A stretch of DNA of 48,043 nt from an uncultured Ruminococcus sp. (lineage in GTDB: Bacteria > Bacillota > Clostridia > Oscillospirales > Acutalibacteraceae): assembly GCA_902785355.1 (NCBI GenBank), contig CACZYF010000027.1:1-48043 (forward strand), read 5' to 3'. A program made the translations under genes and the position numbers. Positions within the stretch are counted from its first letter, which is position 1; every line of letters starts with the position of its first letter. Shown one piece after another: positions 5,497 to 46,282 of the stretch. The notes under the pieces are model-generated. The model saw only the letters and a program-made list of their open reading frames with translations. It was not told the DNA's origin and did not search any database.

Positions 5497-5941
5497 TGAA
5501 GTTCACCTCGGCGTTATCTCTGTTTTCCGGGTCCGGAGATACGGGGGTATCGGGTTGAGCGTTATTCGGCTCGGCCTTTTGCGGATCGTTGTTATGCGGC
5601 TTTGAGCTGTCGGAATCAGACTTTGACTTAGCCTGAGAGTCGGAGTTATCCTCGCTGTTGCGTGCGGTTGAGCTGTGACCGCCGTTTTGAGCGTCACTCT
5701 GCTTATCGCCGCCGGAGCCGATCGTTTCAGCGCCGCTCTGTCCGGCGCTTTTGCCCAGGCTGTCCTCAGCAGAAGTCTCGGCCGCTTCGGTCGACCCCGC
5801 TTCCTGAGAAGCGGACTGCCCGGAGCCGCTTTGCGAGGGGGTCGCGCCGCTGTTCTTGCTGCCGGCGCAAGCCGTAAGGCTGAGTATAAGAGCGATCAGC
5901 AGAATCACCGCTGAGAAATGAATCTTTGACAATTTATTCAC
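5486..5941 (-). CDS. Low-complexity lipoprotein
   Basis: The product has a hydrophobic signal (about 8-24) and the lipobox LTAC, so it should be lipid-anchored on the outer face of the membrane. The remainder is disordered and rich in Ser, Gly, Asn, Asp and Gln, with no folded domain. The listed start is the GTG at 5941. AAAGGTG lies six bases before an in-frame TTG at 5932, which may be the real start. It overlaps the dockerin gene, and the two may be translated together; the lipoprotein could serve as a flexible tether. Two promoters lie directly upstream. Confidence 0.75.
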   Translation of the reverse strand: MNKLSKIHFSAVILLIALILSLTACAGSKNSGATPSQSGSGQSASQEAGSTEAAETSAEDSLGKSAGQSGAETIGSGGDKQSDAQNGGHSSTARNSEDNSDSQAKSKSDSDSSKPHNNDPQKAEPNNAQPDTPVSPDPENRDNAEVNFNDL

Positions 5942-8388: not shown

Positions 8389-10122
8389 TTACCTGTTGAC
8401 GGTCACGACAGTGACGTTGAAGCCGAGAACACGGTTGTATTCAACGGACGAGGTCAGCGAGCGCACCAGCTTGAGTCCGGTCACCTCGCGTCCCGTATCA
8501 TCCACATATTCGGTCGGGTTGAAGATTTTGCCGTTGTCCCTGAGTCGGAGCACGACGGCGTTGTCGGATACCTTAACATAGATATCCACGCTGTCGGACT
8601 GGGACTTAGAGGCGTACTTGGCGGTGTTGACGCACAGCTCCTCCACCGATACGCCGATGTTATGAGCGAGGTTCTTCTCCACGCCCTGCTCTTCACAGAA
8701 GGCGACGGTCTTGTGCGCGGCGTCGGTTGCTTCTGTGATATTGTTATGGATGGAGAAGTCGAGCACGGGGCCCTCTTCGCCGTCGATCAGGAGGTAGTTA
8801 TCCTTTTTTCTGACAATTTTGCAGATCACCAGGATGATGGCTGTGATCAGCACCGTGAGCGCCTTGGAGAAGGGGAACGACGACCACATCCAGTAGATGT
8901 CGATCTTGGAGAGGAAGTACATCAGCGGTACAACGGTGGCAAAACCGTCCAGAACGACCAGGATATTCGCCAGCCACCGCTGCTTGGTCGCCTGGAAGAA
9001 GGAGCGCATGACATAGATCACGGCGAGGATCGGGATGTTGATCGACATGACGCGGAAGGTCACCGCAAAGATCGAGGTGATCGAGGGGTCGGTCAGTCCG
9101 TACAGCGCCGCCAGCGGGAGGGGGAAGAGCATCGAGACGATCATGATGATCATCGACAGCCCCACAGTCACCCACATGCCGTAGCGCAGGGCGAGCTTCT
9201 GACCGCGGATGTCGCGCTCGCCGTACAGCGCGCCGAGGATCGGCAGCAGCGTCATGGTCGCGCCTTCAACGAAGATGAAGCACAGGCTGTTCAGCGAGAA
9301 GGATACCGAGGCGATCTTGGTGCCCATCGTACCCGTAGCGGAAAGGATGATCGCATTGGTGCAGAACAGTCTGAGAAAGTTGCATACGTAGATCAGCGCC
9401 GAGGGCAGACCTGTGCTGAGTATCTTGCCCATCAGCCTGAGGTTCTTCCACGCCCGCTGCGTGAAGTGTACAGAGCGCTGGGGGCTTCTGAAGTAGCCGA
9501 TGACCAGTAGGGAGCCCAGCGCATAGCCGACGACGGTCGCCCAGCCCGCTCCGGCAATACCCCACTTGAATATTGCCATAAAGATATAGTCGCAGATCAG
9601 GTTGATCACGTTCGATACGATCGGCAGGGCGGTCGCCAGCTTCTTCAGGCCGTCGGTACGGGCGAAGGCGGCGGTCTGGTTGTTCAGGGCGGTCAGCGGC
9701 GTGAGCACCCACAGGGGAATCAGATACGCCGCGACCAGGCTCTCGAGCTCGGGCTTGTGCTGCCCGAGCAGCGAGGCGGTCGGAGCGGTCAGCATAACGC
9801 CGATCACGGTGATCACGACGCTCGAGATTATACCTGCCCAGAAAGAGATCGTAAAGACGTTATCTGCCTTTTCATTGTCGCGCTTGCCCTTGTACATGAT
9901 CGCGAGGGTGTTGCCGCCGAAGGTGAACATCGCGATCGGGATGCTTTTCAAAAAGCTGATGGAGTAGGTCAGGTTGATCGCCGACAGCTCCAGCGTGCCG
10001 AGGATCTGACCGACCATGATGCCGTCGAGGATACTCGACAGGTACATCGACGCCGTCATCGCGAGCGTTGACACCAGCAGATTGCGGTAGGTTTTATTAA
10101 TCAGTGTTCCGGTTCGTTTCAT
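8389..10122 (-). CDS. MATE-family exporter fused to an RsbW-like ATPase domain
   Basis: Residues 1-440 are a complete MATE-like multidrug exporter with about twelve helices in two halves (repeat starts near 15 and 240). Residues 453-577 form a cytoplasmic GHKL ATPase/anti-sigma kinase domain: N box SVEELCVNTAKYA (491-503), G1 box RDNGKIFNP (528-536) and a weak G2 (TGLKLV). This domain resembles RsbW and SpoIIAB, not a histidine kinase. The gene starts 10 bases after the NRPS stop. The exporter half likely moves the NRPS product; the fused domain may phosphorylate or bind the STAS proteins of the operon and so link export to regulation. The fusion is unusual for MATE proteins. Confidence 0.88.
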   Translation of the reverse strand: MKRTGTLINKTYRNLLVSTLAMTASMYLSSILDGIMVGQILGTLELSAINLTYSISFLKSIPIAMFTFGGNTLAIMYKGKRDNEKADNVFTISFWAGIISSVVITVIGVMLTAPTASLLGQHKPELESLVAAYLIPLWVLTPLTALNNQTAAFARTDGLKKLATALPIVSNVINLICDYIFMAIFKWGIAGAGWATVVGYALGSLLVIGYFRSPQRSVHFTQRAWKNLRLMGKILSTGLPSALIYVCNFLRLFCTNAIILSATGTMGTKIASVSFSLNSLCFIFVEGATMTLLPILGALYGERDIRGQKLALRYGMWVTVGLSMIIMIVSMLFPLPLAALYGLTDPSITSIFAVTFRVMSINIPILAVIYVMRSFFQATKQRWLANILVVLDGFATVVPLMYFLSKIDIYWMWSSFPFSKALTVLITAIILVICKIVRKKDNYLLIDGEEGPVLDFSIHNNITEATDAAHKTVAFCEEQGVEKNLAHNIGVSVEELCVNTAKYASKSQSDSVDIYVKVSDNAVVLRLRDNGKIFNPTEYVDDTGREVTGLKLVRSLTSSVEYNRVLGFNVTVVTVNR

Positions 10123-38992: not shown

Positions 38993-39057
38993 CCACCGGG
39001 TAGGAATGCCAAGCATTCATGGCGCATCGTTAGGTCTTTGAAGATGCGCTGTGGGTG
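38993..39057 (+). promoter_or_regulatory. Structured leader of pnuC, possible riboswitch of unassigned class
   Basis: CCAC (38993-38996) can pair with GTGG (39051-39054), enclosing two perfect hairpins: GAATGC/GCATTC (39004-39018) and GCGCATC/GATGCGC (39022-39049). This gives a three-way junction about 45 bases before the pnuC start. A TAATAT/TATACT -10 lies just upstream. I do not recognise the class. Confidence 0.5.
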
Positions 39058-39102
39058 CTTTTGTTTATGTGGGGTTACATTGTTGCGATAACGGAGATGC
39101 TT

Positions 39103-39849
39103 ATGAAACGGTTTTATGCGAAATTGAATTACTTTTCCAATGCGGAGAAGGCCTTATGGACGGCGTCGGTGTGCCTGATCGTCTGCGCTTATATTGCCTT
39201 CGGGGGAGAGGGCGTGCTGACCCTGATCGCTTCACTGATCGGCGTGACCTCGCTGATCTTCGCCGCGAAGGGCAATCCCCTCGGGCCGCTTCTGATGGTC
39301 GCGTTCAGCGTGATCTACGGCTGTATCTCCTACGTCTGCGCCTATTACGGCGAGCTGATCACCTACGTCGGGATGACCCTGCCGATGTCCGTGTGGTCGC
39401 TGATCGTATGGCTCAGACATCCCTACGACGGCAAGCGCTCTCAGGTAACGGTCAACGCAAAGCTCAGCGGGCGTGAGTGGGCGCTGCTGGCGCTGCTGAC
39501 CGCGGCGGTGACCGCATTGTTTTGGTTCATCCTCGGCGCGCTCGGTACGGCGAATCTCCTCCCGAGTACCGTATCGGTTGCTACGAGCTTTGCCGCCGTT
39601 TACCTCACCGCCCGACGTTCGCCCTACTATGCGATCGCCTACGCCTGTAACGATATCGTGCTGATCGTGCTGTGGGTGATGATGTCGTTAAAAGACCGCG
39701 GCTGTATCAGCGTAGCGGTTTGCTTCGCAGCCTTTCTCGTCAACGATCTGTACGGCTTCTTCAACTGGAAGCGGATGGAGAAGCGCCAGTCAGAGGGCGA
39801 TTTTGTCGCTTTTGTTGAAAAATCGGGTAAAAAAGGACAGAATCTGTAA
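39103..39849 (+). CDS. pnuC: PnuC-type nicotinamide riboside transporter
   Basis: The 248-residue protein has about seven membrane helices and the PnuC family end AVCFAAFLVNDLYGFFNWKRM. PnuC proteins import nicotinamide riboside by facilitated diffusion, with trapping by phosphorylation. Other family members carry thiamine or riboflavin, so the substrate is probable but not certain. The start is the ATG at 39103, preceded by GGAG with a six-base spacer; longer in-frame starts lack a site. The structured leader upstream suggests control by a ligand or by attenuation. Confidence 0.85.
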   Translation: MKRFYAKLNYFSNAEKALWTASVCLIVCAYIAFGGEGVLTLIASLIGVTSLIFAAKGNPLGPLLMVAFSVIYGCISYVCAYYGELITYVGMTLPMSVWSLIVWLRHPYDGKRSQVTVNAKLSGREWALLALLTAAVTALFWFILGALGTANLLPSTVSVATSFAAVYLTARRSPYYAIAYACNDIVLIVLWVMMSLKDRGCISVAVCFAAFLVNDLYGFFNWKRMEKRQSEGDFVAFVEKSGKKGQNL

Positions 39850-39860
39850 CGGTTTTGAAA

Positions 39861-39889
39861 TTGCAATTCAAGCCCCGCTGTAGTATAAT
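39861..39889 (+). promoter_or_regulatory. Promoter of the cobalamin operon
   Basis: TTGCAA, a 17-base spacer and a perfect TATAAT. Transcription would start near 39896, just before the riboswitch. Confidence 0.8.
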
Positions 39890-39904
39890 AAACACAATCG
39901 AATA

Positions 39905-40094
39905 ACGGATACGGTTCGAAACGCTGTACGCTGAGTAAAGCAGCCAAGCTGATGTAGATTAATAGGGAATCCGGTTCAAGCCCGGAGCAGCCGCCACTAC
40001 CGTAGATGAGCAGAGGTCGGGAGAGTACCATTGGAGCAGTCCGAGAAGGTTCCCGTCCGTGCGAAAGCTTCCTCATGAGCCGGGAGACCTGCCG
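39905..40094 (+). promoter_or_regulatory. Cobalamin riboswitch aptamer
   Basis: The conserved core of the B12 riboswitch is present: AGGGAATCCGGTTCAAGCCCGGAGC with GCCGCCACT (about 39962-39999), and the B12 box GAGCCGGGAGACCTGCC (40077-40093). Spacing and order match the class. It controls the downstream capture and ECF transport genes. Confidence 0.95.
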
Positions 40095-40120
40095 TATCTG
40101 TCAAAAGCCCCTTTGGCGAG

Positions 40121-40198
40121 AAGAGCGCTGATCGAAGCATAGCGCCCTCGCACTATGCCTGTATGTTCTGCGCTCTTTCTGTATGAAAGAGCTTTTTT
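40121..40198 (+). terminator. Expression platform: antiterminator and intrinsic terminator
   Basis: GCTCTTT (40172-40178) pairs with AAAGAGC (40186-40192) and is followed by six T: a terminator. AAGAGCGC (40121-40128) is a perfect complement of GCGCTCTT (40170-40177) and would form a competing antiterminator. The layout predicts transcription stop when cobalamin is bound. Confidence 0.85.
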
Positions 40199-40235
40199 AT
40201 TTGGAAAATGAAAAATCAAGAAATGAGGGTAAAAA

Positions 40236-41261
40236 ATGAAGAAACTGATTGCATTACTGCTGGTCGTCCTGACGGTTCTGTCCGTCAGCGTATTGTTCGC
40301 CGCTGCGGGTGAAAACGACGTAAAGGTCACCGTGACCATCGCCGATAACGAGGGTAAGCTCGCGCTGGCGGCGAAGGAGGTCACCGTCACCGATATCGAC
40401 AAAGATGAGAAGCTGACCATCAACGACGCGCTCTATGCCGCGCACGAGCAGTACTATACCGGCGGCGCCGCGGCAGGCTATGCCACCGCCACCACCCAGT
40501 ACGGCCTGTCCCTGACGAAGCTCTGGGGTATTGCCGACGGCTATAACTACGGCTATATGGTCAACGACGCCTCCGCATGGAGCATGACCGACCCCGTGAA
40601 GGAGGGCGACTATGTCGCGGCTTACTGCTTCACCGATAACAAGACCTTTGCCGACAAGTACAGCTATTTCACCGAGCGTAAGATCACCGCTCCCGCGAGC
40701 GGCGAGGTCACGCTGACCTTGAAGAAGAACGATTTTGATAAGGACTGGAACCCCGTCACCTTAGCGGTAGCGGGCGCTCAGATCACCGTGGACGGTAAGC
40801 TCAGCGGCGTATTTACCGATGTAAACGGACAGGCGACCGTGACCCTGTCCGGAGAGGGCGAGCATCAGATCAGCGCTGTCGCGACGAATCAGGTCATCGT
40901 ACCTCCCGTCTGCATCGCGAAAATCGCCTCCGCGACCGAGGCGGCTTCCGAGACTTCTACCGAGGCGGAGCAGGGTACCGAAGCTGTCGACCCGACTCAG
41001 GCTGAGGGCGTTACCGAGGCTCCCGCTGAGGACGGCACCGAGGCTTCGACTGAGGCTGTGACCGAGGTCGCGACCGAGTCCGCGACTCAGCCCGCCACCA
41101 AGGATCAGGCGACTAAGGATCAGACCAATTCGGGCAAGAACACTACCTCGCCCAAGACCGGCGACAGCACCAACGTCATGCTGTGGGCGATGATCACCCT
41201 GATCTCGCTGTTCGGTGCCTGTGCAGTCGTATTCTACTGCAAAAAGCATAACAAAGCATAA
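40236..41261 (+). CDS. Cell-wall-anchored DUF4430 protein, likely cobalamin capture
   Basis: The 341-residue surface protein has a signal peptide (1-24) and a DUF4430-type domain (about 28-150) with the segment LWGIADGYNYGYMVNDASAW. A beta-sandwich-like domain (160-230), a Thr/Glu-rich wall-spanning stretch (231-300) and a sorting signal of LPXTG type (SPKTG at 305-309, a hydrophobic helix, then KKHNKA) follow. DUF4430 is related to the beta domain of animal cobalamin carriers. It is the first gene after the cobalamin riboswitch and overlaps the next gene by one base. A role in binding B12 or a corrinoid at the wall and passing it inward is inferred. Confidence 0.85.
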   Translation: MKKLIALLLVVLTVLSVSVLFAAAGENDVKVTVTIADNEGKLALAAKEVTVTDIDKDEKLTINDALYAAHEQYYTGGAAAGYATATTQYGLSLTKLWGIADGYNYGYMVNDASAWSMTDPVKEGDYVAAYCFTDNKTFADKYSYFTERKITAPASGEVTLTLKKNDFDKDWNPVTLAVAGAQITVDGKLSGVFTDVNGQATVTLSGEGEHQISAVATNQVIVPPVCIAKIASATEAASETSTEAEQGTEAVDPTQAEGVTEAPAEDGTEASTEAVTEVATESATQPATKDQATKDQTNSGKNTTSPKTGDSTNVMLWAMITLISLFGACAVVFYCKKHNKA

Positions 41262-43123
41262 TGAAGAATAGACTTTTCGCATTCCTGCTGTGTCTGCCGA
41301 TCCTCTTTTCGTGCGGGCAAAGTGCGTATGCCGAAAGTGCCTACTATACCGTCGCGCAGGTACAGGACCTCTGCGACGGTATTGTCGCATATAAGGAGCG
41401 ACAGACGGGAGCGGGCAGTATGCAGGAGCTGATCGACGGGGAGCTGACCGCGAACGCGGGCACCACCGCCGAGTTCTACGCGATCGCGATCTCTCAGGCG
41501 GGAAGCTACCGCTGGGGGAATTACGAGCGTGCGCTGAAAAGCTATCTGAACAGCCATGATATCCCCTCCGCCGCGAGCCGGCTGAAATATGCCCTCGCGC
41601 TCGGCGCGGTCGGAAGCGACGACGGCTATATCGCCGATACCGCTGACGAAGCGATCGGCGGGCTGGGCGTGATGAGTCTGGTGTTCGGACTCCATCTGCT
41701 GAACAACGGTTATTCGAGCTCGATGTACAGCCTCGACGGGCTGATCGACGAGCTTTTATCGTGGCAGAAGGACGACGGCGGCTGGGCGGTGATGGGCAGC
41801 TTCGGCGACGTAGACGTGACCGCGATGACGCTGCAGGCGCTCGCGCCGCATGTCTACAGCCGCGGCGACGTGCGTTCCGCTATCGATGCGGGACTTACGC
41901 TTCTGTCGAAACGCCAGCTGCCAAGCGGCGGCTTCAAGACGATGGGCGCCGAAAACAGCGAGAGCGCAGCGCAGGTATTGATCGCGCTGTCGGCGCTCGG
42001 TATCGACGCGCAGACCGATCCCCGCTTCATCAAGAACGGCAGTACCCCGCTGTCGGTGCTCCTCGATTACCGCTGCTCCGACGGCAGCTTCGCGCATACG
42101 AATACGTCGAACGAGAACGCGACGATGGAGGCGTACTGCGCGCTGATTGCCTACCTACGTATGAGCAGGGGACAGGGCTCGCTGTATCAGCTCGACCGCG
42201 TCGGGTATCTCGACCCCGAGCCGCAGAACTCTCCCTCGGGCGGCGGGAACAGCAACCCGGGATCGGCGCGTCAGCAGGGAAACGGCTCAAATGTCGGCTC
42301 AGATCAAAGCGGAGATAATCCGCACAGCGCGGGTGGTTCATCCTCCTTAGGCGGTACAGCCGAAAATCAAAATACAAGTAATAACAGCCGTCCTACGACG
42401 GCGACCGACGCGCACGGCGAGCCTGTGACGACCGTATCGGGACAGGACGGCACGTCGGCGCAAAGCCCGTCCTACGGCGGCTTCCAGCCCTCGGCGACGG
42501 GGGATCAGCGCACGATCGCGACCGCCGATGAAGGCGGCAGAAAGGGCGGCTACAAGCCCTATGCCATCCTCGGCGTGCTGATCGCGGCGGGCGGCGCGTG
42601 TCTTGTGCTCTATCTCTTGAAAAAGCGCGGGAAGAAGCACTATATCGCTGTTGCCGCGATCACCGCGGCGGGCGTGCTCTTCATCCTGCTGACCAACTTC
42701 GAGAGCCCCGATACCTACAGCCGTACTCCTCAACAGGACGGCGATCTGACCGTGACCTTGAGTATCCGATGCGATACGATCACCGACCGTGAGAAGGTAA
42801 ACCGCTATATCCCCGACGACGGAATCTTCCTCGATAACGCCGAGATCACCCTTTCCGACGGCGCGACAGCGTATGACGCCCTGCTCATTGCCGTGAAGGA
42901 GCACGCGATCCCGATGGATAACCGCGGGGCTCAGGACGCGGCGTATATCGCGGGGCTCGGCTATCTGTACGAGTTTGATTACGGCGAGCTGTCGGGCTGG
43001 ATGTACCGCGTCAACGGCACATTCCCCGACGTGGGATGCCAGAGCTATCATCTGTCCGACGGCGATAAGATCGAGTGGCTCTACACCACCGATATCGGCA
43101 AGGATCTGAAAGAAACTGACTGA
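41261..43123 (+). CDS. Membrane protein with alpha/alpha-toroid plus DUF4430 domains, intrinsic-factor-like
   Basis: The 620-residue protein starts with a signal peptide (about 1-24). Residues 30-310 form a helical toroid of the terpenoid-cyclase/prenyltransferase type, with repeats LLSWQKDDGGWAVMGSFGD, LSKRQLPSGGFKTMG and SAAQVLIALSALG. A low-complexity linker (311-430) leads to two membrane helices (434-452, 461-478) joined by KKRGKKH, then a C-terminal DUF4430 domain (495-614) ending SGWMYRVNGTFPDVG and SDGDKIEWLYT. Both domains therefore face outside. The same two folds in the same order make up animal intrinsic factor and transcobalamin. Under riboswitch control and 20 bases before ecfT, it is probably a membrane B12-binding protein that feeds the transporter. 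Confidence 0.85.
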   Translation: MKNRLFAFLLCLPILFSCGQSAYAESAYYTVAQVQDLCDGIVAYKERQTGAGSMQELIDGELTANAGTTAEFYAIAISQAGSYRWGNYERALKSYLNSHDIPSAASRLKYALALGAVGSDDGYIADTADEAIGGLGVMSLVFGLHLLNNGYSSSMYSLDGLIDELLSWQKDDGGWAVMGSFGDVDVTAMTLQALAPHVYSRGDVRSAIDAGLTLLSKRQLPSGGFKTMGAENSESAAQVLIALSALGIDAQTDPRFIKNGSTPLSVLLDYRCSDGSFAHTNTSNENATMEAYCALIAYLRMSRGQGSLYQLDRVGYLDPEPQNSPSGGGNSNPGSARQQGNGSNVGSDQSGDNPHSAGGSSSLGGTAENQNTSNNSRPTTATDAHGEPVTTVSGQDGTSAQSPSYGGFQPSATGDQRTIATADEGGRKGGYKPYAILGVLIAAGGACLVLYLLKKRGKKHYIAVAAITAAGVLFILLTNFESPDTYSRTPQQDGDLTVTLSIRCDTITDREKVNRYIPDDGIFLDNAEITLSDGATAYDALLIAVKEHAIPMDNRGAQDAAYIAGLGYLYEFDYGELSGWMYRVNGTFPDVGCQSYHLSDGDKIEWLYTTDIGKDLKETD

Positions 43124-43143
43124 TAAAAAGAAGGGGGGACAGG

Positions 43144-44013
43144 ATGAAAGGCTTTGAACGGCTCAACCCGCTGTCTGCGGCGTTGTATTATCTCTGTGTG
43201 CTAGGACTGAGCATGTTTTCTATGAATCCGCTGATGCTTGTGATCTCGCTTTTCTGCGCTGTCCTGACCTGTATCGCCGACGGCACGGTGAAGGCGCGCG
43301 GGCATCTGTTCGCGCTGATCCTGTTCATCGTCGCCGCTGTGCTGAACCCGCTGATCGTCCACAAGGGCGCGACCGTCCTGTTCTATCTCAACGACCGTCC
43401 CTTCACGATGGAGGCGGCGGTCTACGGCGTGACGGCGGCGGTGATGCTGACGGCGGCGCTGTACTGGCTGCGTTCGCTGTCGCGGGTATTTACCGCCGAT
43501 AAGGTGATGTACCTCTTCGGACGGATATCGCCGAAGCTCGCGCTGCTGATCTCGATGACCCTCAGGTATGTGGGACTGTTCAAGTACCGCTTTCGGCGTA
43601 TCCGCGACGCACAGCGGGCGCTGGGACTTTATGACGACGGCAACCTGATCGACGCGGTGCGCGGCAACGCGCGGGTGCTGTCGATCCTGATCACGTGGAC
43701 GCTCGAGAACGGTATTGTCACCGCCGAGAGCATGGAGGGTCGCGGCTACGGTTCCGGTCGGCGAACCTCCTACGCGCCCTACCGCCTGCACGGTACGGAC
43801 GCTGTGTTTATGCTGTTGACGGCTCTGCTGACGGCAATCGCCGTCGCAGGTACGGCTCATACGAGCGCAGTTTTTTATCCGGAACTGAACTTTGATTTAC
43901 TGAATCCGTGGGGGATCGCGGGTACGGCGGCGTTCAGCCTGCTGAGTCTGCTGCCCCTGATACTAAACGCAAAGGAGGCGATCAGATGGCGTATCTTGAG
44001 CTCGAAGGTCTGA
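43144..44013 (+). CDS. ecfT: ECF transporter transmembrane component EcfT
   Basis: The 289-residue protein has about five or six membrane helices and the EcfT coupling region: RDAQRALGLYDDG and the second Ala-Arg-Gly-type motif in SMEGRGYGSGRR. EcfT links the two ATPases to the substrate-binding S component. It is the fourth element of a riboswitch-led operon; GGGGGG precedes its start. The gene overlaps the ATPase gene by 28 bases. The presence of its own T and A components near an S component indicates a dedicated (group I) ECF system. Confidence 0.92.
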   Translation: MKGFERLNPLSAALYYLCVLGLSMFSMNPLMLVISLFCAVLTCIADGTVKARGHLFALILFIVAAVLNPLIVHKGATVLFYLNDRPFTMEAAVYGVTAAVMLTAALYWLRSLSRVFTADKVMYLFGRISPKLALLISMTLRYVGLFKYRFRRIRDAQRALGLYDDGNLIDAVRGNARVLSILITWTLENGIVTAESMEGRGYGSGRRTSYAPYRLHGTDAVFMLLTALLTAIAVAGTAHTSAVFYPELNFDLLNPWGIAGTAAFSLLSLLPLILNAKEAIRWRILSSKV

Positions 44014-45599
44014 GCTTTACCTATCCCGAAGCGGCACAACCCGCGCTGACGGATATATCCTTACAGATAGAGCGCGGCGAGCTGGTTGCCCTCTTAGGCG
44101 CGACAGGCTCGGGAAAAAGTACACTTCTGCGCCTGCTCAAGCCCGAGCTGCGCCAAAACGGAACAATACAGGGTGAAGTCATGCTCGACGGTCGTTCGGT
44201 CGATTCTCTTTCATCCCGTGAGAGCGCGGGGATCGGCTATGTCGCCCAGAATCCCGACGAACAGCTCGTGACGGATAAGGTGTGGCATGAGCTCGCCTTT
44301 ACCCTCGAGAACCTCGGCTCGCCGCGTGAGCAGATCGCCCGCAGGATCGCCGAGACCTCCGCTTTCTTTGATATCGATTCGCTGTATTCCCGCGATACCG
44401 CGACTCTTTCGGGCGGTCAGAAGCAGCTGATCAATCTCGCGGCAGTGATGACCGCAGACCCCGAGCTGCTGCTGCTCGATGAGCCGACCGCTCAGCTTGA
44501 CCCGATCGCCGCGACACGCTTCATCGAGACCGTCTGTCGCCTCAACCGTGAGCTGGGGCTTACGGTGATCGTCAGCGAGCACCGTACCGAGGAGCTGTTT
44601 TCCCTCTGCGACCGGGTAATCGTTCTCGAGCATGGAGCGGTGATCTACAACGTCAAGCCGCACGAGATCGCGGAGCGGATATCGTCCGACAGCCCTTATC
44701 TGAGCTTTCTCCCCGCGGCGACGCGGCTGTTCCGCTTGACCGGGAGCAGGGGAGAGGTGCCTCTGAGCATCCGCGAGGGTCAGCGGTATGTATCCGCGTT
44801 AAAGCCGATGAACAGAGCGGCTTGTGACGAGTCGAAGCCCGCGCAGGGTGAACCCGCTCTGGAGTTGAAGAACGTGTATTTTCGCTATGAGCGGAACGGG
44901 GCGGATATCCTCTTTGACCTCAGTCTGAGCGTGAACAGCGGCGAGATCTTCGCCCTGCTCGGCTCGAACGGCGCGGGTAAAAGCACCGCCGCCGCCGTTG
45001 CCGCGGGACTGCGCAAGCCGCTCAGCGGGAGTGTGAAGCTGTTCGGCAAGCGGCTGAAGGATTACCGCGACGGTTCCCTGTATCGGGGAAATCTCAGCCT
45101 GCTCCCGCAGGACGTCGAGAGCCTTTTCCTGTGTGAAACCGTGCATGAGGAGCTCAAGGGCTGTGAGGAAGTGTTGAAGAATTTTCCTTACGATCTGAGC
45201 CGTCTGTACGACCGTCATCCCTACGATCTCTCGGGCGGCGAACGTCAGCTGGTCGCGCTGTGCAAGGCACTCTCGACCCGTCCGCGCGTTTTGCTGATGG
45301 ACGAGCCGTCCAAGGGACTCGACGGCGGGATGAAGCGTATGCTGATCGAATTGATCAAGGCTTTTAAGGCGAAGGGCATGACCGTGGTGCTGATCAGCCA
45401 CGACGTCGAGTTCGCCGCGATGTGCGCCGACCGCTGCGCCCTGTTCGCGCAGGGCGGGATCGCCGCTGTCGATACCGCCGAACGCTTCTTCTCCGACAAC
45501 CGCTTCTATACCACCGCCGCTTCACGGATGACGCGGCTGATCGCCGACGGCGCCTATACCGTGGAGCGTGCAGCGCAGATGCTGGGAGGCAACGTATGA
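43986..45599 (+). CDS. ECF transporter ATPase, two fused EcfA domains
   Basis: The 537-residue protein carries two complete ABC ATPase units. The first has Walker A GATGSGKST, Q loop, signature LSGGQKQL and Walker B LLLLDEPTAQ. The second has GSNGAGKST, signature LSGGERQL and Walker B VLLMDEPSKG. The two correspond to EcfA1 and EcfA2, here in one chain. It powers uptake through EcfT. The start at 43986 is preceded by GGAGG; the longer frame from 43908 is part of the upstream gene region. It overlaps the S-component gene by four bases. Confidence 0.95.
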   Translation: MAYLELEGLSFTYPEAAQPALTDISLQIERGELVALLGATGSGKSTLLRLLKPELRQNGTIQGEVMLDGRSVDSLSSRESAGIGYVAQNPDEQLVTDKVWHELAFTLENLGSPREQIARRIAETSAFFDIDSLYSRDTATLSGGQKQLINLAAVMTADPELLLLDEPTAQLDPIAATRFIETVCRLNRELGLTVIVSEHRTEELFSLCDRVIVLEHGAVIYNVKPHEIAERISSDSPYLSFLPAATRLFRLTGSRGEVPLSIREGQRYVSALKPMNRAACDESKPAQGEPALELKNVYFRYERNGADILFDLSLSVNSGEIFALLGSNGAGKSTAAAVAAGLRKPLSGSVKLFGKRLKDYRDGSLYRGNLSLLPQDVESLFLCETVHEELKGCEEVLKNFPYDLSRLYDRHPYDLSGGERQLVALCKALSTRPRVLLMDEPSKGLDGGMKRMLIELIKAFKAKGMTVVLISHDVEFAAMCADRCALFAQGGIAAVDTAERFFSDNRFYTTAASRMTRLIADGAYTVERAAQMLGGNV

Positions 45600-46282
45600 T
45601 GGTGATACAAAGTCCCCGACTGCGGTCGTTCCTGAGATACGCGATCCCCTTCGCGCTGATCCCGGCGCTGGTCGCGGTGAGCGCCCTGCTGTTTGAGGGT
45701 CAGCGGTACCTGATCATTTCGCTCGGGATCGCGGTGCTCGCGCTCGTGCTGTTCACGGCGGGCGTGGAGCGGCGCAACATCGGCTCGCGGCGCATGGTGA
45801 TCACGGCGATCATGACCGCGCTGGCGGTGTTCGGGCGGTTTATCCCTCTCTTTAAGCCGATCACGGCGATCTGCGTACTGACGGCGATCTACCTCGGCGC
45901 CGAGGCGGGCTTCCTCTGCGGCTCACTGAGCGTGCTGATCTCGAATATCTATTTCGGACAGGGTCCGTGGACGCCGTTCCAGATGCTCGGCTTCGGGCTG
46001 ATCGGGCTGATCGCGGGTTACCTGAGCCGACCGCTTATGCGCTCCAAGCTTTTGCTGAGTTTATACGGCGCTCTTGCCGGAGCGGGTTATTCCTTCATCA
46101 TGGATATCTGGACGGTGTTGTGGTACGCGGGCAGGTTCGACCCTGCGCTGTACGGCACGTCGATCGTCTCGGCGCTGCCTTTTACCCTGCTTTATACGGT
46201 CTCGAACGTGATTTTTCTGCTCCTGCTCAGAAGACCCGTCGGCAATAAGCTCAGGCGTATTAAGCTCAAGTACGGCGTATGA
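45596..46282 (+). CDS. ECF transporter substrate-binding (S) component, predicted for cobalamin
   Basis: The 228-residue protein has about six or seven membrane helices, with the ECF S-component pattern in SRRMVITAIMTALAVFGRF, TAIYLGAEAGFLCGSLS and ISNIYFGQGPWTPFQMLGFG. The start ATG overlaps the ATPase stop (GTATGATGG) and GGGAGG is six bases upstream. The family resembles S components predicted to carry cobalamin or its precursors (CbrT/CblT type). The riboswitch and the intrinsic-factor-like proteins in the same operon strongly support a corrinoid substrate. Confidence 0.88.
   Translation: MMVIQSPRLRSFLRYAIPFALIPALVAVSALLFEGQRYLIISLGIAVLALVLFTAGVERRNIGSRRMVITAIMTALAVFGRFIPLFKPITAICVLTAIYLGAEAGFLCGSLSVLISNIYFGQGPWTPFQMLGFGLIGLIAGYLSRPLMRSKLLLSLYGALAGAGYSFIMDIWTVLWYAGRFDPALYGTSIVSALPFTLLYTVSNVIFLLLLRRPVGNKLRRIKLKYGV

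Follow-up and report, generated by a model that had tools for sequence, protein, structure and literature searches.

Bacterial proteins in which an alpha/alpha toroid and a beta-grasp (SLBB) domain like that of transcobalamin are fused were described in 2007 by Burroughs, Balaji, Iyer, and Aravind as secreted or anchored proteins of low-GC Gram-positive bacteria (PMC1796856). The parts of that account drawn on here report CbiO/CbiQ operon neighbors, a second paralogous SLBB protein, and hosts without key B12 synthesis enzymes, and they propose a role in B12 scavenging as well as a transfer of animal transcobalamin from low-GC Gram-positives (PMC1796856). Two further lines of published work are relevant: the importer component CbrT has been proven experimentally to bind and import cobalamin and cobinamide, in work that used an E. 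coli strain without btuF, btuC, and metE (PMC5997447), and a DUF4430 protein encoded near rtpR in Lacticaseibacillus (L.) rhamnosus is annotated as "Additional lipoprotein component of putative cobalamin ECF transporter" (PMC9963975; ECF, energy-coupling factor). Among the titles and abstract openings of the open-licence literature, we found no experimental work on a bacterial toroid-DUF4430 member. Here, we describe an operon of this kind in a 48,043-nucleotide (nt) stretch (the window), which is one contig of the genome of an uncultured Ruminococcus sp. (2.23 Mb, 98.98% complete). The operon comprises a cobalamin riboswitch, two genes for surface proteins (g1 and g2), and a set of ECF transporter genes.

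We interpret this locus as a B12-repressed operon for corrinoid scavenging and import, with a probability of roughly 78%. The B12 interpretation as such, meaning the regulation and the type of importer, rests on several lines of evidence and is well supported; the two-sided clamp that g2 might form is something that we infer. The features are the following:

39861..39889, + strand: promoter-like site, TTGCAA-17-TATAAT, directly before the riboswitch (consensus scan, 10 of 12 positions agree)
39895..40110, + strand: cobalamin riboswitch aptamer, RF00174 (88.1 bits, gathering score 31.5, E 1.6e-20)
40120..40178, + strand: predicted antiterminator helix with arms 40120-40128 and 40170-40178 (folding of 40112-40182, -27.2 kcal/mol, z -2.98)
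40172..40199, + strand: intrinsic terminator with a T run (8-pair stem, -12.0 kcal/mol, z -4.26)
40236..41261, + strand: g1, secreted surface protein with a DUF4430-like domain, a beta-sandwich, a Thr-rich linker, and an SPKTG-type anchor
41261..43123, + strand: g2, 620 amino acids, with a signal peptide, an alpha/alpha toroid, a linker, two membrane helices, and DUF4430 (transcobalamin-like beta-grasp)
41345..42199, + strand: g2 toroid, about residues 29-312 (profile A9, E 2.0e-117, the window itself being a row of A9)
42563..42700, + strand: g2 membrane hairpin, residues 435-480, with a KKRGKKH turn (hydropathy)
42860..43087, + strand: g2 DUF4430, residues 534-609 (PF14478, E 4.6e-17 in the genome search and 6.2e-16 in the protein search)
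43144..44013, + strand: EcfT, CbiQ family (PF02361, E 5.3e-8)
43986..45599, + strand: EcfA-EcfA' double ATPase (two ABC_tran stretches; ATG 43986 with AAAGGAGG)
45596..46282, + strand: S component, CbrT family (phmmer match to 6fnp_A, E 1.6e-9)

No other RF00174 match at E ≤ 0.001 was found in the genome. Behind it, the terminator has bases in common with the antiterminator; its stem ends at 40192, and the whole element ends 36 nt before g1. The five genes then follow closely packed or overlapping in the order g1 (40236), g2 (41261), ecfT (43144), double ecfA (43986), and S component (45596-46282). Promoter-type consensus sites were found 5 times in 8 kb, compared with 3.0 times (standard deviation, 1.8) in shuffles, so that the promoter evidence is weak taken alone. 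A gene for a PnuC-type nicotinamide riboside transporter (39055-39849) ends just before the riboswitch promoter.

By homology, the S component ties the transporter to B12. Its start was set to the ATG at 45596, replacing a longer GTG open reading frame (ORF) from 45422. As a single sequence, it matched the CbrT structure 6FNP_A (E 1.6e-9; runner-up, 0.077), and a profile of its family (24 rows) matched 6FNP at 3.7e-19, followed by 4hzu (0.0042) and the riboflavin uptake protein 3p5n (0.081); the family match to CbrT and its runner-up are thus about 16 orders of magnitude apart in E value. The double EcfA matched ECF_ATPase_1 (E 1.9e-92) with 309.5 bits, slightly below the cut-off of 315. These results support an importer of the B12 type, its likely substrate being judged by homology to CbrT as a proven B12 S component. 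A transporter for cobalt only was considered and is disfavored by the CbrT match of the S family.

The product of the second gene, g2, joins a toroid to a beta-grasp domain of the transcobalamin type and would be secreted or anchored, as in the 2007 systems. A Gly/Ser-rich linker leads from the toroid to two hydrophobic segments (residues 435-453 and 462-480), which lie between the toroid and DUF4430 and are present in 59 of 59 aligned g2 rows, window included, at a hydropathy threshold set by us. By the positive-inside rule, which is the basis for placing the hairpin turn, the KKRGKKH turn would lie inside the cell, and the toroid and DUF4430 would therefore both lie outside. The toroid of g2 alone stays below the Pfam cut-off (PF00432, E 1.4e-4, 21.9 versus 26.5 bits); among the 59 g2 rows at E ≤ 0.01, PF13243 was matched in 45, PF00432 in 40, and DUF4430 in all 59. 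Against the Protein Data Bank (PDB; 177,635 distinct sequences), the toroid profile (27 rows) matched squalene-hopene cyclases at 1e-13, with weaker matches to prenyltransferases and thioester-domain proteins, and the fused g2 profile A1 matched squalene cyclases only. The matches of the toroid-family profiles make the fold class clear; they do not show any particular closeness to the toroid of transcobalamin. A preliminary description of the window, made from its letters and without database searches, had already named a cobalamin riboswitch, a g2 with a toroid, two membrane helices, and a C-terminal DUF4430, both domains being extracellular, and a full ECF set (T, double A, S). All of this held: the riboswitch is borne out by its RF00174 score (88.1 versus 31.5 bits), the layout of g2 by domain profiles and hydropathy, and the transporter by PF02361, the ABC_tran pair, and the CbrT-family S component, while the predicted membrane topology, with signal peptide and hairpin, supports the extracellular location.

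The gene preceding g2 lay outside the discussion in the preliminary description. Compared with DUF4430 by hhalign, the g1 family reached a probability of 92.8 (E 3.9e-7), and PF14478 was matched by 2 of 52 aligned g1-family rows; in the Pfam search, g1 itself matched no family above its cut-off, and its profile found nothing meaningful in the PDB. An AlphaFold2 model of residues 21-236 (pLDDT, 94.7; pTM, 0.90) places a strand-strand-helix-strands unit first and then further strands, which we read as a probable beta-sandwich. The C terminus resembles a sortase anchor (LPXTG_anchor, 18 bits with a cut-off of 15.9, E 0.0033), with a hydrophobic segment at residues 314-332. The DUF4430-like domain also carries a conserved DxDxD at residues ∼53-64, with D53, D55, and D57 invariant in 7 rows, a stretch that has the look of a calcium-binding loop.

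The host appears to need B12. The single match to a B12-binding domain in the genome (622 amino acids seen) is a MetH-type methionine synthase with S-methyl_trans, Pterin_bind, and B12-binding domains. CbiD and CobS had no match in the 98.98%-complete genome, in a search that covered these two steps of synthesis and salvage; judged by these two, the genome resembles the hosts of 2007 in being without key B12 synthesis genes. In one published count, >80% of B12 auxotrophs were without the upstream pathway as well as the majority of the downstream pathway (PMC6593275).

Related loci were collected by scanning a genome collection with patterns taken from g2 itself (a fused query), and the best 80 of 493 were kept (L022-L101). 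Since these loci were found with g2 patterns, likeness of their operons is expected by descent. One relative of g2, 96% identical, came from an uncultured Clostridia metagenome bin, and others came from Ruminococcus bins (many of them ruminant derived) and from Ruminococcus flavefaciens. All 80 loci had toroid and DUF4430 fused, 78 had EcfT in the same orientation, and in 76, g2 was preceded by an ORF of the g1 or DUF4430 type. At the Rfam gathering level, 40 of 74 loci scanned had a B12-class aptamer upstream of the operon (28 RF00174, 11 RF01689, and 1 RF01482). Our own model R1, which was built from the 11 RF01689 matches and run on a set including those, and whose E values are rough, found 37 loci at E < 1e-3, in every case on the strand of the g1 open frame and no farther than ∼0.7 kb from where that frame begins. 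It added 20 loci to those found by Rfam, the 11 training matches not being among them. An exact B12 box preceded g1 in 6 loci outside the Rfam scan. All told, 66 of the 80 operons had a B12-type aptamer or such a box ahead of them; among the remaining 14, 4 had at most ∼120 nt upstream and 10 were without an aptamer (one of them, L089, with an R1 match of E 0.08). The operons of L055, L074, L097, L100, and L101 begin with the ECF genes. Locus L083 has two RF00174 elements (5763-5906 and 8627-8759), one ahead of g1-g2 and the other ahead of the ECF genes, so that each half of the operon has its own link to B12 there. It was also observed that one operon type stands behind three Rfam families of B12 riboswitches (RF00174, RF01689, and RF01482) in related genomes.

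A survey independent of g2 covered 147 genomes of the order at E ≤ 0.001 (some matches lying below curated cut-offs; RF01482 was left out). DUF4430 was matched in 105 genomes (149 matches), RF00174 in 90, and RF01689 in 16; over the curated cut-offs, the numbers were 102, 83, and 5 genomes, respectively. The B12 riboswitches amounted to 150 distinct elements in 103 genomes, found with stricter filters that lose weak matches. In 64 of the 74 genomes having both, DUF4430 lay ≤10 kb behind a B12 riboswitch on the same strand. Counted by matches, this was the case for 76 of 149 (71 of them ≤5 kb), compared with a chance expectation of ∼0.3% that we estimated from the size of the genomes, and a single match lay within 10 kb of a riboswitch in any other arrangement. 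Toroids were called strong at an E value of 1e-25, a threshold set after a gap from 4.7e-30 to 9.4e-21 had been seen. DUF4430 was found within 3 kb of 46 of 53 strong toroids and a B12 riboswitch upstream of 36 of 53, while the weak toroids, serving as a control, had DUF4430 nearby in 4 of 24 cases and a riboswitch upstream in 1 of 24.

The preliminary description had expected homologues to lie with cobalamin riboswitches and not mostly away from them, and the R1 loci together with the 64 of 74 genomes came out in its favor. It had further claimed that g2 shares two folds, in the same order, with transcobalamin and intrinsic factor, and here the two halves of g2 part ways. The C-terminal domain is homologous to the transcobalamin beta domain, as indicated by PF14478 and by a broad DUF4430 profile (A10; 37 rows, relatives across the order) for which transcobalamin-2 took ranks 1-4 in the PDB (E 0.011, 0.18, 0.19, and 0.19), with alignments covering the C-terminal beta domain. 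No special likeness emerged for the toroid: the toroid profile matched no transcobalamin chain in the PDB at E ≤ 10, and of the 24 families that the 59 g2 rows matched (E ≤ 0.01), none was PF01122, which we take to be the N-terminal toroid family of eukaryotic cobalamin-binding proteins. In the literature, DUF4430 is named as the C-terminal domain of TCN proteins (PMC4350170), and the homology between DUF4430-type domains and transcobalamin was reached in 2007 via iterated searches and fold comparison (PMC1796856).

Taken together, the operon might work as follows. At low B12, the aptamer would be empty, the antiterminator would form, and the operon would be transcribed; at high B12, the terminator would form. 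The anatomy of this switch is seen in the leader, and its response to the ligand is presumed. The g1 protein would be anchored in the wall or membrane and g2 by its membrane hairpin, exposing the toroid and the transcobalamin-like beta-grasp domains, which might catch cobalamin or other corrinoids. Flanking a short membrane hairpin, the two halves of g2 could close on one corrinoid as transcobalamin does. The CbrT-like S component would then receive the corrinoid for import by EcfT/EcfAA', if homology is a guide to the substrate, and the imported B12 would serve MetH.

Several results weigh against this interpretation. The match to transcobalamin is weak (best E, 0.011), and the four chains behind it are versions of a single protein; chains of intrinsic factor and haptocorrin are absent from the A10 matches in the PDB at E ≤ 10, and the narrow DUF4430 profile A3 found no transcobalamin at E ≤ 1, only 5bxg at 0.39. 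For the toroid of g2, the closest solved relatives are squalene cyclases, not transcobalamin. Among the 76 loci with more than ∼120 nt upstream, 10 had no aptamer by Rfam or R1, and in the survey, a B12 riboswitch upstream was missing for 17 of the 53 strong toroids. Furthermore, 45 of 149 DUF4430 matches came from genomes in which no B12 riboswitch was matched, and another 28 had no link to a riboswitch that their genome did contain, so that DUF4430 overall may bind other things. Relatives differ in their domain order and in how toroid and DUF4430 are tied to each other; a fixed clamp therefore need not hold. Finally, the genome encodes one Peripla_BP_2 protein, which makes a second importer possible.

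The variable tie bears on an alternative in which the operon imports corrinoids without a two-sided clamp, each DUF4430 binding a corrinoid by itself and the toroid having another role, with a glycan, a protein, or a corrinoid-protein complex as partner. It is compatible with the 41 of 149 DUF4430 matches that lie behind a B12 riboswitch with no toroid within 3 kb, with the human transcobalamin beta domain, which is described as binding cobalamin by itself (PMC5599065), and with several congeners in which toroid and DUF4430 are separate adjacent genes. For the human transcobalamin domains, when expressed separately, an assembly that depends on cobalamin is also described (PMC5599065). The close association of the two domains argues the other way, both in the survey (neighbors in 46 of 53 strong toroid loci, with a riboswitch ahead of 36 of 53) and in the fusions of the 80 best loci, where the query was itself fused. 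We consider this alternative unlikely, although it has to be reckoned with. It is less probable still that the system imports a corrinoid precursor, a lower ligand, or cobalt in place of complete cobalamin. EcfT does belong to the CbiQ family, and CbrT is reported to carry cobinamide too (PMC5997447), but the S family is closest to CbrT, and neither CbiD nor CobS was matched to finish a precursor, within a search limited to these two among the salvage genes.

An enzymatic role for the toroid, with the B12 link being regulatory only, would agree with squalene-hopene cyclases as the top matches of the toroid profile and with the retained DxD-x-TA motif. DXDD is the cyclase motif, and its fourth residue is Asp in 0 of 27 and 0 of 59 rows; moreover, the domain is predicted to be extracellular, where prenyl substrates are not expected. 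A squalene-hopene-cyclase-related enzyme is therefore very improbable, and because the fourth DXDD Asp has been lost, we reject the toroid as a terpene cyclase. Corrinoid scavenging and import under B12 repression remains the interpretation that we prefer.

Within the order, the way in which the capture module is anchored differs. At three congener loci (L124-L126, the places of L014, L015, and L019), the first protein has the order DUF4430-toroid-dockerin (Dockerin_1, E 2e-11 to 2e-10) and its gene follows an aptamer of the R1 type, which is AdoCbl-II-like (E 1e-6 to 5e-4). A DUF4430 gene and EcfT-AA-S follow downstream in L124 and L126, and the contig of L125 ends after the first gene. Cohesin-like domains above the cut-off were found in 9 of 9 genus genomes searched, including that of the window (best E values, 2e-11 to 1.3e-6). 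The dockerin forms suggest that B12 capture may be docked on cohesin-bearing complexes. Fusions with S-layer domains occur in other parts of the order, in L115 and L116. In addition, L115, L116, and L117 encode very large surface proteins (1,640-2,195 amino acids) with toroid and/or DUF4430 units.

A wider reading joins three propositions: that the halves of g2 are fixed on either side of the two-helix hairpin as a membrane-hinged clamp, whose closure might draw the corrinoid to the CbrT-type S component; that the capture module might swap anchors within the order (sortase-type, hairpin, S-layer, and, in congeners, dockerin); and that the Gram-positive proteins might be present-day relatives of the protein from which intrinsic factor arose. 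Taken jointly, the three are possible and rather doubtful, and we offer them tentatively.

B12 auxotrophs are common in the gut, and the literature examined does not establish how Gram-positives capture B12 at their surface. The widespread operon, linked to riboswitches and to CbrT, makes the prediction of 2007 directly testable, and it is relevant to the question of a Gram-positive origin of the B12 carriers of animals. If the suggestion holds, the dockerin forms would place B12 capture on cohesin-bearing surface complexes.

Compared with the systems of 2007, as far as the parts of that account drawn on here describe them, the window has the same type of fusion, CbiO/CbiQ-like genes, a second extracellular DUF4430/SLBB protein (g1), and a host without key B12 synthesis genes as judged by CbiD and CobS. 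The word "riboswitch" appears nowhere in the main text of that paper, whereas the operon of the window has one, and the membrane hairpin between the halves and the dockerin forms come from the present analysis and are absent from the same parts of the 2007 account (PMC1796856). Because the idea of B12 scavenging by such proteins has been in print since 2007, the novelty is modest; the additions made here are the links to the riboswitch and to CbrT, the conserved membrane hairpin, and the dockerin-bearing relatives. ECF-CbrT of Lactobacillus delbrueckii (6FNP) has an S component of the same family and likewise a T and two A domains (PMC5997447), whereas in the window the ECF genes share one operon with g1 and g2. 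Animal transcobalamin, intrinsic factor, and haptocorrin likewise have a toroid followed by the homologous beta-grasp domain. These proteins are soluble and secreted, with one flexible linker, while in g2 the domains are separated by a long linker plus two membrane helices, and the animal-family toroid (PF01122, transcobalamin chains) has no special sequence link to that of g2. BtuG and BtuH of Bacteroides capture corrinoids at the surface and feed an importer, as is proposed here for the operon of the window; they are Gram-negative proteins of other folds and work with the TonB-dependent BtuB.

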